Part shown: piece by piece, positions 26,051-34,232 of the stretch
Numbering within the stretch: position 1 is the stretch's first letter
Layout of the letters: the number at the start of each line of letters is the position of its first letter
From: Syntrophomonas sp.
GTDB taxonomy: Bacteria; Bacillota; Syntrophomonadia; Syntrophomonadales; Syntrophomonadaceae
Reading direction: 5' to 3'
Assembly: GCA_016841245.1 (NCBI GenBank)
Contig: JAENZN010000001.1
Coordinates: forward strand, 1 to 64,000
DNA length: 64,000 nt
Notes under the pieces: model-generated
What the model was told of the DNA's origin: nothing
What the model saw: the letters and a program-made list of their open reading frames with translations, nothing else
Databases searched by the model: none
Program-made: the position numbers and the translations under genes

Positions 26051-26890
26051 TTAATATACCTTAGACAGCAAAGTATCTTTTCTAAGCTCTGGACAGCCGC
26101 ATTCCTGCTTAACCGGCAGATTACGCAGTACCTGCAGCATTACCGCAGCCACCGCCCTGCTCTCACCATAAAATATATCCTCTAGTTCTTCATGCTGCCA
26201 GGGCGATACAATCCCCTCGGCATAATTAACCACCAGATACAAACCTGCATAACAAGCCTCTATTTCACGAGCCAGATATACTTCCGGACACAAGCTCTGC
26301 CCTACCACATCTGCCCCTGACATCTTGAAAGTGTTTATTTCTGCCGGGCTTTCAAAATGTCGTCCATCGGTATTGACATAGACTCCACGATCAAATACCC
26401 TTCCACTCTGCCATATACCTTGCAGCACTTCCACAACAGCCTGTCTCATCTCACTACACAGGGCATCTCTCATTACCAGCAGGTAGCGATCAGACAATGA
26501 GACATCCTTCCTCATGGATACATCTATATAATCATAGGGTACCACAATATCACGAGGCTTCAAAAGGTGGTTTATAGCACCCACCCCTCCTTCGGCCAAA
26601 ATTCTTTTAACTCCAGCTTCCTTAAACACATAAAAAACCTGCCGAGAAGCATCTGCTCTGTTTACACCGCTTCTCCAACCATGCATCCTACAACTTAGAA
26701 CACTTCTTTTTATTCCGTCTTCTCCCAATAGACTGAGATATTTGAATTCTGGGCTTTCTCCATAGGGAGTAGGAAAAACCAGCCCATTTTCCAACACTTC
26801 TACAAAATCATAATTCATTTCTTCGGGCAGTTCAATGCTCAAGGTACTTGACCCGCCCAGCAGACCAAAATCAGCAGCAGGTATACTCAT
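26051..26890 (-). CDS. MTAP/PNP-family nucleoside phosphorylase
   Basis: The 279 residues match the purine nucleoside/methylthioadenosine phosphorylase family: FGLLGGSST at the N-terminus, then [13 protein letters not shown] (family: H..G..P..INYRAN), [27 protein letters not shown] (usual: ATNAVGSL...PGD.V..DQ.ID) and [18 protein letters not shown] (usual: G.D.V.M...PE..LA.E). Several hallmark residues are altered, including M to Q before the PE motif, so substrate preference may be unusual. It lies 176 bases downstream of mqnC in the same direction. In the futalosine pathway a nucleoside-cleaving step is needed between the MqnE and MqnC steps, and no mqnB is seen here, so this gene is a candidate for it. 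Confidence 0.75.
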
Positions 26891-26970
26891 TTAATACTAT
26901 TACCCTCTCTTTCTTACACATTTACTTCTCAATTCCCTGCTAGAATCCTTGTTTTTTATTCCAATTTGTT

Positions 26971-27062
26971 GTGTCAGGGGTGTCAGGGGGACGGTTCTTT
27001 TGACACAAGTTTTGCATCTAAATTTTGTGTCAAAAGAACCGTCCCCCTGACACCCCTGACAC
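26971..27062. repeat. Perfect 37-bp inverted repeat, GACGGTTC family
   Basis: Arms 26971-27007 and 27026-27062 are perfect inverted copies around an 18-base loop. They contain GTGTCAGGGG, TCAGGGGGACGGTTC and TTTTGACAC. It sits 3 bases after the mqnC stop codon and may terminate that transcript. Related palindromes lie at 34141 and 40405. Confidence 0.85.
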
Positions 27063-27065
27063 ATA

Positions 27066-28142
27066 TTAGAGTACTCTCAATATCTGGTATTCGGTATTCC
27101 TGAGCGCGGGTTGACGTCCGCTTTCTCTAATCATATCCACCATGCGCTTAAACTCCATATTGTGGGTGGTTCCGGCTGCTCTTACTACATTTTCTTCCAG
27201 CATTAGACTTCCCAGGTCATCAGCCCCAAAGTAAAGAGTCAGCTGACCAATACGATCCCCTTGAGTAACCCAGGAACCTTGTATATGTTTCACATTATCT
27301 AAATACAAGCGAGCCAGAGCCAGAAAGCGCAGGTAAAGCGCTGAAGTGATTTTTTTTCCCAGGAGTTGGTTATTGCCGGGCTGATAGGTCCAGGCAATAA
27401 ACGCTCTGAAACCTCCGGTTTCATCCTGCAGATTGCGGATCTTTTCAATATGATATAAACGGTGTTCCAACCCTTCTACACTGCCCATCATCATAGTGGC
27501 GGTTGATTCCAAACCGATTTCATGTGCTGATCTCATTACTTCCAACCAGCGGTGGGTCATGATTTTGTTGGGACTGATGGCTTTCCTTATATCATCATGT
27601 AGTATTTCAGCTCCCCCACCGGGCAATGAATCTAATCCCGCATCTCGTAAGCGAAGCAGTGCTTCTTTAATACTCAAACCTGATTTTTCAGCAATAAATA
27701 CGATTTCTGGAGCCGTCAGGGAATGAATGGTGATATCATAACTAGATTTTATACTCCGGAACATTTCTTCAAAATACTCAATACCCAGATCCTCATTCAT
27801 GCCTCCCTGTATCATAAGCTGGGTAGCTCCCAGATCCACGGCTTCGTCAATCTTTCTCATCAGAGTTCTCTTATCTATCACATAAGCTTCCGGGTGATCT
27901 TTTTCACGGTAAAAAGCACAGAATTTACATTGGCATGTGCAAATATTGGTATAGTTAATATTGCGGTCTATTATGAAAGTTGCCAGGTTATGGCCAAAAA
28001 TGTTCTCTCTGACCTGAGTTGCTGCCTGACCCAGTTCCAGCAGTCCGGCATGCTCATGCAGGAACATAAACTCTTCTTTGGTCATGCGCCGCCCTTTTAC
28101 TATATCATCTAGTATGCTTTTAGTGTGCAATTTTCCCTCCAC
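27066..28142 (-). CDS. mqnC: Cyclic dehypoxanthinyl futalosine synthase MqnC
   Basis: The 358-residue radical SAM protein carries the cluster motif C68-x3-C72-x2-C75 (NICTCQCKFCAF), then LGATQLMIQGGMNEDL, LDSLPGGGAEIL and WTYQPGNN, all typical of MqnC. It cyclises dehypoxanthine futalosine to its cyclic form in the futalosine route to menaquinone. The start is a GTG at 28142 whose G is the last base of the mqnA stop (TAGTG), so translation is coupled. Downstream a palindrome separates it from the phosphorylase gene. Confidence 0.93.
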   Translation of the reverse strand: MEGKLHTKSILDDIVKGRRMTKEEFMFLHEHAGLLELGQAATQVRENIFGHNLATFIIDRNINYTNICTCQCKFCAFYREKDHPEAYVIDKRTLMRKIDEAVDLGATQLMIQGGMNEDLGIEYFEEMFRSIKSSYDITIHSLTAPEIVFIAEKSGLSIKEALLRLRDAGLDSLPGGGAEILHDDIRKAISPNKIMTHRWLEVMRSAHEIGLESTATMMMGSVEGLEHRLYHIEKIRNLQDETGGFRAFIAWTYQPGNNQLLGKKITSALYLRFLALARLYLDNVKHIQGSWVTQGDRIGQLTLYFGADDLGSLMLEENVVRAAGTTHNMEFKRMVDMIRESGRQPALRNTEYQILRVL

Positions 28143-28969
28143 TATATATCAAGAATCTCCAGAGACGGTACTTCATCGATAAGACCATGCATACTGGCCT
28201 GCCGATAGTACTCCGTCAGTCCTTCCTGCTGTTTAAGGTCAAAGTCAAATCTCAGAGTCCTGAAATAATCTACCAGATATTCTTCTTCGAAGTCTTCCCA
28301 CTGGGCCACTTTGGCTGCCACATCCCAGATGTTCTCCAGGCTCAGTTTGATCGAATCGGTAAAAGTATCTTTAATGATTTTTATCTGCTCCAAATTATTT
28401 TGGGCAAAATCTTTGCGGATGGCCCACACCGCAAATACCATAGGAAGTCCGGTGAACTTCTTCCATACTTCTCCTAAATCATAAATATGCAGGCGATGGT
28501 AAGTTTTACAGCGTGCTCTTAGAGCATCATCACCGATTAAAAGGGCAGCATCAGCTTCCAACAGCATAGCTCCCAGTTCCGGAGTTGACTGAAAATATTC
28601 CGGTACCGCCTGGTAGTAGCGAGCCATAATTATTCTCAGCAAAGCTTGAGATGTGGCCGATGCATTGGTTAAAGCTATTTTTTTACCATGCAGTTCCTCA
28701 ATGGGGAATTTGGAAAACAGGTATATGCTCTTGACTTCTCCATCTGAACTTACAGAAATATCAGGCATCAAAACATATTCCCGATAGTTTCTGGCATAGG
28801 CGATAGAAGATATGGGGGCCATATCCAGAACATTATCCTGCAGCATCCGGTTCAGATCGGTAGGTATTCCTTTAATCAGGTCGATTTCCAGCAGGAATTT
28901 CTTTTCTATCAGCCCATAAAAGAGAGGAAAACAGTTTATAAATTGTATATGCCCTACACGTGGTCGCAT
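28142..28969 (-). CDS. mqnA: Chorismate dehydratase MqnA
   Basis: The 275 residues have the periplasmic-binding-like fold of MqnA: RPRVGHIQFINCFPLFYGL, NRMLQDNVLDMAPISSIAYARN, KIALTNASATSQALLRI and ALLIGDDALRA. MqnA dehydrates chorismate to 3-enolpyruvylbenzoate, the first futalosine-pathway step. It is cytoplasmic. It starts 13 bases after mqnE and overlaps mqnC by one base, giving the order mqnE-mqnA-mqnC in one operon. AGGAGGG precedes the ATG. Confidence 0.92.
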   Translation of the reverse strand: MRPRVGHIQFINCFPLFYGLIEKKFLLEIDLIKGIPTDLNRMLQDNVLDMAPISSIAYARNYREYVLMPDISVSSDGEVKSIYLFSKFPIEELHGKKIALTNASATSQALLRIIMARYYQAVPEYFQSTPELGAMLLEADAALLIGDDALRARCKTYHRLHIYDLGEVWKKFTGLPMVFAVWAIRKDFAQNNLEQIKIIKDTFTDSIKLSLENIWDVAAKVAQWEDFEEEYLVDYFRTLRFDFDLKQQEGLTEYYRQASMHGLIDEVPSLEILDI

Positions 28970-28982
28970 TTTTACCCTCCTA

Positions 28983-30065
28983 TCAAAATTCTTTTATAAT
29001 ATTATAAAGGGTATCCCGCTCAGTAGGTATATACCCTGAATCTTTGATCAGATTTACCAGATCTTCTTTACTGATGCCCTTGGCCGTGCCGGCACCAGCA
29101 GCGTGCATTATTCTCTCCTCTACTACGGTACCATCAATATCATCTGCTCCAAAATCCAGAGCTATCTGCGCAATGGGCAGACCCAACATGATCCAGAAGG
29201 CCTTGACATGAGGTATATTGTCCAGCATAAGACGCGATATGGCTATGGTCTTCAAATCATCAACGGCACTGGTTCGCTTGATATGTTCCATGGAAGTGTT
29301 TTCGGGCAGAAATGGCAGAGGAATAAAAGACTGAAATCCAGGCATCTCATCCTGCAGTTCCCGCAGTCGTATCATATGTTCGATGCGGTCTTCTTTACTT
29401 TCAATATGTCCATAAAGCATGGTGCAGTTGGTTTTAATATCCATCTGATGAGCAATACGGTGTACATCCAGCCATTCATCACTCATTGCTTTATTCGGAC
29501 ACAGTTTTCGCCTTATTTCATCGTTGAAAATCTCTGCTCCTCCACCAGGCATAGAGCCCATACCCGCATCTTTCAGTACCTGCAGGACTTCCCGTATGGT
29601 CCTTCCGCTGATCCGGTGCATATGAAAAATCTCTACGGCAGTAAAAGCTTGAATATGTATGTCAGGAAACCCCTGATTTAACTTTCTAACCACTTCAGCA
29701 TAGTAATCCAAACCCAGGTTCGGATGCATAGCACTAACTATATGAAATTCCGTAATCCCGTGGTCAACCGCAGCTGCTCCAAATTCAAATGCTTCATCTG
29801 CGGTCATTAAATAAGGGCCGCCTTCTCCATTTTCATCTACTCCAAAAGCACAGAATTTACACCGAGATACACATATATTGGTCAGGTTGATGTGGCGATT
29901 CACATTAAAAAACACATTCCTGCCTGACATCTCCAACTTTTTATCCCGGGCCATTTCACCTATAGCAAGCAGATCATGACTCTCATATAAATACAGCCCA
30001 TCTGCCCGGTCGAGCCGCTCATGACTCTTCACCTTCTCCTTGATCTCCAGCAGTCTAATATCCAT
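28983..30065 (-). CDS. mqnE: Aminofutalosine synthase MqnE
   Basis: The 360-residue radical SAM enzyme has C65-x3-C69-x2-C72 (NICVSRCKFCAFG), then ITEFHIVSAMHPNLGLDYY, GSMPGGGAEIFNDEIR and FIPLPFLPENT, which distinguish MqnE from MqnC. It joins 3-enolpyruvylbenzoate to SAM to make 6-amino-6-deoxyfutalosine. It is the first gene of the mqn operon and lies 56 bases after the ABC-class ATPase gene, in the same direction. No promoter was resolved in that gap. Confidence 0.92.
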   Translation of the reverse strand: MDIRLLEIKEKVKSHERLDRADGLYLYESHDLLAIGEMARDKKLEMSGRNVFFNVNRHINLTNICVSRCKFCAFGVDENGEGGPYLMTADEAFEFGAAAVDHGITEFHIVSAMHPNLGLDYYAEVVRKLNQGFPDIHIQAFTAVEIFHMHRISGRTIREVLQVLKDAGMGSMPGGGAEIFNDEIRRKLCPNKAMSDEWLDVHRIAHQMDIKTNCTMLYGHIESKEDRIEHMIRLRELQDEMPGFQSFIPLPFLPENTSMEHIKRTSAVDDLKTIAISRLMLDNIPHVKAFWIMLGLPIAQIALDFGADDIDGTVVEERIMHAAGAGTAKGISKEDLVNLIKDSGYIPTERDTLYNIIKEF

Positions 30066-34140: not shown

Positions 34141-34232
34141 GTGTCAGGGGGACGGTTCTCTTGACACTTATTTCTATTATGAGACAAGCAGCAGGGGGTC
34201 ACTTCAAACCGTCCCCCTGACACACCTGACAC
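34141..34232. repeat. REP-like palindrome, GACGGTTC family
   Basis: GTGTCAGGGGGACGGTT (34141-34157) is inverted as AACCGTCCCCCTGACAC (34207-34223), 17 bp perfect. The middle is imperfect and contains TTGACAC. It lies between tRNA-Trp and the converging APC permease gene and is a diverged relative of the perfect palindrome at 26971. Confidence 0.8.

Follow-up and report, generated by a model that had tools for sequence, protein, structure and literature searches.

The window studied here is a stretch of 64,000 nucleotides from Syntrophomonas sp. (contig JAENZN010000001.1, positions 1 to 64,000), and our subject is the gene at 26051-26890 on its minus strand, encoding a 279-aa protein with the PNP/MTAP (purine nucleoside phosphorylase/methylthioadenosine phosphorylase) fold and predicted to cleave futalosine in menaquinone biosynthesis. 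It is the last of four adjacent open reading frames, all on the minus strand. The others are mqnE (28983-30065, 360 aa), encoding the radical SAM enzyme aminofutalosine synthase (TIGR03700, 490 bits, cut-off 434.55), mqnA (28142-28969, 275 aa), encoding chorismate dehydratase (PF02621, 264 bits; grouping with MqnA in the MqnA/MqnD tree), and mqnC (27066-28142, 358 aa), encoding the radical SAM cyclic dehypoxanthinyl futalosine synthase (TIGR03699, 475 bits, cut-off 428.1). The last base of mqnA is the first base of mqnC, and a gap of 175 bases separates mqnC from the fourth gene. The family models and the shared orientation agree with a first-pass annotation of this DNA, which had described an mqnE-mqnA-mqnC operon followed in the same direction by an MTAP/PNP-family gene.

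That gene is mqnZ: a PF01048 gene in an mqnEAC operon, in a genome lacking mqnD, it matches by description a gene, similar in position and family, to which Ravcheev and Thiele gave this name in 2016 (PMC4746308). They proposed that it replaces MqnD and noted that the proposal had no support from sequence. In a literature search by the name mqnZ no relevant paper was found beyond that one.

The only Pfam family matched by MqnZ is PF01048 (100.7 bits); PF02621, the family of MqnD, gives no match. The protein thus belongs to the phosphorylase superfamily, yet it scores below the cut-off of every curated equivalog model there: TIGR01694 (S-methyl-5'-thioadenosine phosphorylase) gives 105.4 bits vs the cut-off of 274.85, and neither TIGR03664 (MqnB) nor TIGR01704 (MTAN) is among its family-model matches. 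The nearest named relative, 95% identical and the sole one found when named genomes were scanned with the single sequence, comes from the metagenome bin Syntrophomonas sp. B5_bin.5. With the MTAP-type protein of its own genome, MqnZ shares about 32% identity over residues 93-277. The altered context of the PE motif, pointed out in the first-pass annotation, is confirmed: GMTSVPEV of MTAP-type proteins becomes GQSLCPEV in the window MqnZ, and the Gln is present in 58 of 58 relatives.

The genome containing the window is 99.99% complete and encodes two PF01048 proteins, MqnZ and a normal MTAP/MTI (methylthioinosine) phosphorylase, which scores above the cut-offs of both the MTAP and the MTI-phosphorylase models. 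The MqnB and MTAN models have no matches anywhere in this genome. Moreover, MqnD was not found in the genome, mqnA being its sole strong PF02621 gene, with all remaining matches at 25.8 bits or below. This absence had escaped the first-pass annotation, as had the prior naming of mqnZ, and it is a larger puzzle than the absence of MqnB. The normal MTAP/MTIP (methylthioinosine phosphorylase) gene of the same genome lies elsewhere (L158, 6302-10136), where it shares an operon with mtnA and with genes for a class II aldolase and an amidohydrolase of the MTA/SAH-deaminase kind; this operon probably encodes an oxygen-independent salvage route for methylthioadenosine or deoxyadenosine.

Distribution of MqnZ, MqnB and MqnD

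In the family of the window genome, an mqnZ orthologue was found in 30 of 54 genomes (58-100% identity, two of them fragments). A strong MqnA is encoded in 31 of these genomes, and in the sole one without mqnZ (G010) the contig ends within the operon. For the phylum, a profile built from 18 MqnZ orthologues was applied to 329 evenly chosen genomes. The scores fall into separate groups: 57 genomes score at least 347 bits (MqnZ), four score 225-244 bits (a sister group), and the others do not exceed 142 bits; the two exceptions to this gap, a fragment in G352 (191 bits) and an extra copy in G162 (159 bits), belong to genomes already counted. PF02621 is present in 57 of 57 MqnZ genomes vs 32 of the remaining 272.

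Mutual exclusion was analyzed in 79 genomes at least 90% complete, comprising 52 with MqnZ, 3 with sister-type proteins and 24 that are PF02621-positive without MqnZ. MqnC is above its cut-off in 52/52, 0/3 and 21/24 of these, respectively, and MqnB in 0/52, 0/3 and 18/24 (Fisher p = 1e-12 for MqnB vs MqnZ, kinship being ignored). Hence the 73 MqnC genomes comprise 52 with MqnZ, 18 with both MqnB and MqnD, and three that belong to neither group (G168, G360, G365). In other words, 52 of 73 MqnC genomes have MqnZ instead of the two textbook enzymes.

A PF02621 gene directly adjoins each of the 18 MqnB genes, as judged by coordinates, and is of MqnD type in the seven genomes placed on the tree. 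Together with G365 these 18 account for MqnD in 19 of the 24 PF02621-positive genomes without MqnZ. The PF02621 proteins of the 57 MqnZ genomes are all MqnA-type; this call was made with two home-made profiles for 40 genomes (G096 among them), by tree for 10 and separately for G283, while for the remaining six, from the family of the window genome, it means clustering with MqnA in BLAST. A hidden MqnD was considered in G055, G090 and G162, which have a second PF02621 protein, and was ruled out, since all of these proteins fall within the MqnA side of the tree. A second MqnA-type subgroup of PF02621 proteins is also seen in several families (L159, L160, L161, L162).

Since mqnB and mqnD lie next to each other in the MqnB genomes, the exchange is between mqnZ and an mqnB-mqnD cassette. 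This swap occurred several times independently: on the MqnC tree parsimony requires at least nine changes between the MqnZ and MqnB types, at least five of them on well-supported branches (mean of 500 shuffles, 16.8), and one such switch separates G170 from G251, members of the same genus. In these counts, as in the comparison of MqnC residues, G365, which has MqnD and no MqnB, is labelled MqnB/D-type. The possibility that MqnC itself is changed in MqnZ genomes was rejected, as there are no fixed differences between 50 MqnZ-type and 19 MqnB/D-type rows; Trp at residue 196 (12/50 vs 18/19) is a trend only. The lack of a fixed difference fits an unchanged MqnC substrate.

Two of the three MqnC genomes outside both main groups, G168 and G360, yielded no MqnB, MqnD or MqnZ, the result for G168 being limited to its assembly. 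G365 encodes MqnE, MqnA, MqnC and a divergent MqnD, and its sole PF01048 protein is MTAP-type (loci L143, L169); no MqnB, MTAN or MqnZ was found in it. Among MqnZ carriers, G020 (93% complete) has MqnZ as its single PF01048 protein, and in one family six genomes with a completeness of 99-100% carry MqnZ without any MTAP-type protein. Because of these genomes a salvage phosphorylase is not the general futalosine cutter.

Predicted active site

The residue survey covered 58 MqnZ sequences, four fragments being left out, and compared them with five MTAP/MTIP and three sister proteins; positions were matched by sequence alignment via the MTAP-type relatives. An AlphaFold model of the window MqnZ (mean pLDDT 75.4, pTM 0.82) has as its nearest solved fold in Foldseek the Pseudomonas aeruginosa methylthioinosine phosphorylase with hypoxanthine (3OZB), and in VIA-align the archaeal-type MTAP II (3T94; Z 23.5, 3.5 Å over 252 residues). 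The candidate site residues are Ser14, Met69, His70, Glu100, Arg127, Arg141, Arg177, His178, Glu180, Gln198, Ser199, Asn222 and Glu225.

Glu180 and Asn222, which we take to correspond to the Glu and Asn that bind the base in 6-oxopurine PNPs such as human PNP, are invariant in all three groups (58/58 MqnZ, 5/5 MTAP/MTIP, 3/3 sister proteins). The purine-binding pair characteristic of 6-oxopurine PNP and MTIP enzymes is thus retained in MqnZ.

The phosphate site is different. In Schistosoma mansoni MTAP it is described as consisting of Ser12, Arg54, His55, Ala88 and Thr207, with Asn87 (human Thr93) beside it (PMC5147791, available part). The position of Arg54 is occupied by Met69 in 57 of 58 MqnZ proteins and by Phe in one, and that of Asn87 by Glu100 in all 58. 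Other elements persist: Ser14 and His70 are present in 58/58, position 199 is Ser in 51 and Thr in 7, and Gly101 stands at the Ala88 position in 58/58. The phosphate-site Arg and the Thr/Asn typical of MTAP are therefore both lacking in MqnZ, and the loss of the Arg together with the placement of an acid at this site argues for water, not phosphate. That the fold can hydrolyse is indicated by S. mansoni MTAP, which, according to the same source, cleaves adenosine without added phosphate (PMC5147791).

Moreover, MqnZ has several polar residues not present in MTAP-type or sister proteins: Arg127 and Arg141 (58/58), Arg177 (57/58), and the invariant His178 and Gln198. From this pattern we infer that one of the three Arg residues may bind the carboxyphenyl side chain of futalosine.

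Neighbouring genes and sister proteins

Of the four sister proteins scoring 225-244 bits, three were aligned, and Glu100, Glu180, Asn222, Glu225 and Trp231 are common to these three and MqnZ. Their genes (L138-L140, in G178, G144 and G106) share loci with genes for adenosine deaminase, a Bmp-type binding protein and ABC permeases, the Pfam matches coming from one of the three loci, and no MqnC or PF02621 was found in their genomes. The location of these genes in nucleoside-uptake operons with adenosine deaminase indicates removal of the base from a deaminated nucleoside. The L138-L140 proteins, also without the phosphate Arg, may be unrecognised nucleoside hydrolases.

Clustering of neighbouring genes in the window and in 40 loci of at most 20 kb, of which six do not contain MqnZ, revealed no linked gene for the MqnD step, giving only mqnE, mqnA, mqnC and housekeeping or synteny neighbours. 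In two distant families (L119, 6266-9908; L132, 6129-10751) mqnZ is followed by DUF362-like, radical SAM-like and MTAN-like genes, the DUF362 assignment being a Pfam match from L119 only; this set was not seen in the loci of other families. In family f40 a deaminase gene adjoins mqnC in the MqnZ genomes G091 and G364, one long frame in each. In G168 the deaminase gene next to mqnC (L141, 3864-5202) is broken into two frames, and its N-terminal piece has the aminofutalosine deaminase model as the best score.

The gap between mqnC and mqnZ contains a near-perfect palindrome (26970-27063) with two 44-nt arms (fold -80.4 kcal/mol, z -15.7), followed by no T-run. A copy of its core with one mismatch is located at 34143-34165 of the window, and at the equivalent site of the related locus L049 a different sequence, also palindromic, has the same GGGGACGGTTCTTTT core. 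The gap looks as if it were occupied by a family of repeat elements.

Possible roles of MqnZ and relation to known systems

On balance we favour, as the probable role of MqnZ, that of a PNP/MTAP-fold futalosine hydrolase, not a phosphorylase, performing the job of MqnB; we infer the substrate, the hydrolysis and the role of Glu100 from the comparisons above. The role of MqnB is preferred because MqnB is absent from MqnZ genomes and the purine pocket is intact. In the proposed pathway, aminodeoxyfutalosine made by MqnE would be deaminated to futalosine, the hypoxanthine form, from which MqnZ would remove hypoxanthine, most likely with water activated by the invariant Glu100 at the place where relatives hold phosphate. 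The product would be free dehypoxanthinyl futalosine, the normal substrate of MqnC, which would then cyclise it, and the MqnD step would be performed by MqnZ itself or by an unlinked enzyme. If so, a phosphorylase fold has become a hydrolase via changes in the phosphate site, and the assignment fills one gap in the pathway of an essential cofactor, menaquinone, and exposes a second one at the MqnD step.

Several observations weigh against this assignment. MqnD disappears along with MqnB, which replacement of MqnB alone leaves unexplained, and since mqnB and mqnD are adjacent, the exclusion pattern cannot tell the two roles apart. In G365 an MTAP-type enzyme may perform the futalosine step; MTAN, above its cut-off in 11 of 52 MqnZ genomes, could cut futalosine there, and an MTAP-type protein is present in the majority of carriers. 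The confidence of the AlphaFold model (pLDDT 75.4) is only moderate. Finally, residue 68 (Arg or Lys in 55/58 MqnZ proteins; Arg68 in the window), one position before the lost Arg and spaced from His70 as in the R-x-H of human PNP, could still hold phosphate in its place.

Alternatively, MqnZ could perform both steps, base removal and the ring-opening with carbon-carbon cleavage, perhaps acting after MqnC on a cyclised nucleoside. A single gene stands in place of the mqnB-mqnD pair after several independent events, no other neighbour gene was found to be conserved across distant families, and MqnZ has the additional polar residues (Arg127, Arg141, His178, Gln198, and Arg177 in 57/58). Still, the two reactions are chemically dissimilar, MqnC has no fixed change, only the trend at residue 196, and the gene comparison covered neighbours alone. 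We regard this dual role as unlikely; if true, the futalosine pathway to menaquinone is shortened in a large part of the phylum. We think it likewise improbable that MqnZ replaces MqnD only, converting cyclic dehypoxanthinyl futalosine to 1,4-dihydroxy-6-naphthoate and leaving the cleavage of futalosine to the salvage MTAP/MTI phosphorylase or an MTAN. This agrees with the published proposal (PMC4746308, available text), with the grouping of all PF02621 copies of the 57 MqnZ genomes with MqnA, with the MTAP/MTIP-type enzyme of the window genome and with G365, which suggests that an MTAP-type enzyme can suffice for the futalosine step. However, MqnB is equally absent from MqnZ genomes, some of which have no MTAP-type protein at all, the invariant purine-binding Glu and Asn would be needless for a base-free substrate, and the sister group belongs to nucleoside-salvage operons.

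The first-pass annotation had placed the gene in the role of MqnB, which the co-occurrence in 0 of 52 genomes and the retained purine pocket support, and had suggested phosphorolysis, which is not supported. For MqnZ to be a futalosine phosphorylase, MqnC would have to take the 1-phosphate, and MtnA and the class II aldolase would finish the route, releasing dihydroxyacetone phosphate. Such a route would account for the loss of MqnD, a single operon of the window genome combines the genes for MTAP/MTIP, MtnA, a class II aldolase and an MTA/SAH-type deaminase, and His70, Ser14 and Ser199 of the phosphate site are retained; but Met and Glu replace the phosphate Arg and Thr/Asn. Moreover, the sugar-1-phosphate would probably need mtnA, whose absence from 9 of 52 MqnZ genomes counts against phosphorolysis, and the route via MtnA was rejected as a general mechanism. 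Overall, we consider a phosphorylase role very unlikely. The conflict with MqnC raised in the same annotation would be removed by hydrolysis, which would yield the normal MqnC substrate. That MqnZ is an ordinary salvage phosphorylase located beside mqnC by chance is hardly credible: it shares a fold family with MTAP, but its presence tracks MqnA (57/57 in the phylum sample, 30/30 in the family of the window genome), and the window genome already has a normal MTAP.

The MTA/MTI phosphorylases (MtnP, MTIP; 3OZB, 3T94) share with MqnZ the fold and the Glu/Asn of the 6-oxopurine pocket; MqnZ differs from them in the phosphate-site changes of Arg to Met and Thr to Glu, in the Met to Gln change of the PE-motif region and in scoring below the family cut-off. 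MqnB (TIGR03664) and MTAN (TIGR01704) have the same reaction as that predicted for MqnZ but belong to a different PF01048 subgroup. MqnD (PF02621) is of an unrelated family and is absent wherever MqnZ occurs in the sample. A deficit of MqnD is also hinted at by the published counts for Firmicutes, in the part of the table available, where MqnD is found in 16 cases vs 24 for MqnA and 25 for MqnC (PMC3914697). The published mqnZ likewise belongs to PF01048 and adjoins mqnEAC in Syntrophomonas wolfei and other genomes that lack mqnD (PMC4746308, available text). Our data support that mqnZ is linked to the pathway and that MqnD is absent; the difference is that replacement of MqnD is proposed there, with MqnB not mentioned in that text (PMC4746308), whereas in the genomes analyzed here MqnB is absent as well and the purine pocket of MqnZ is intact.

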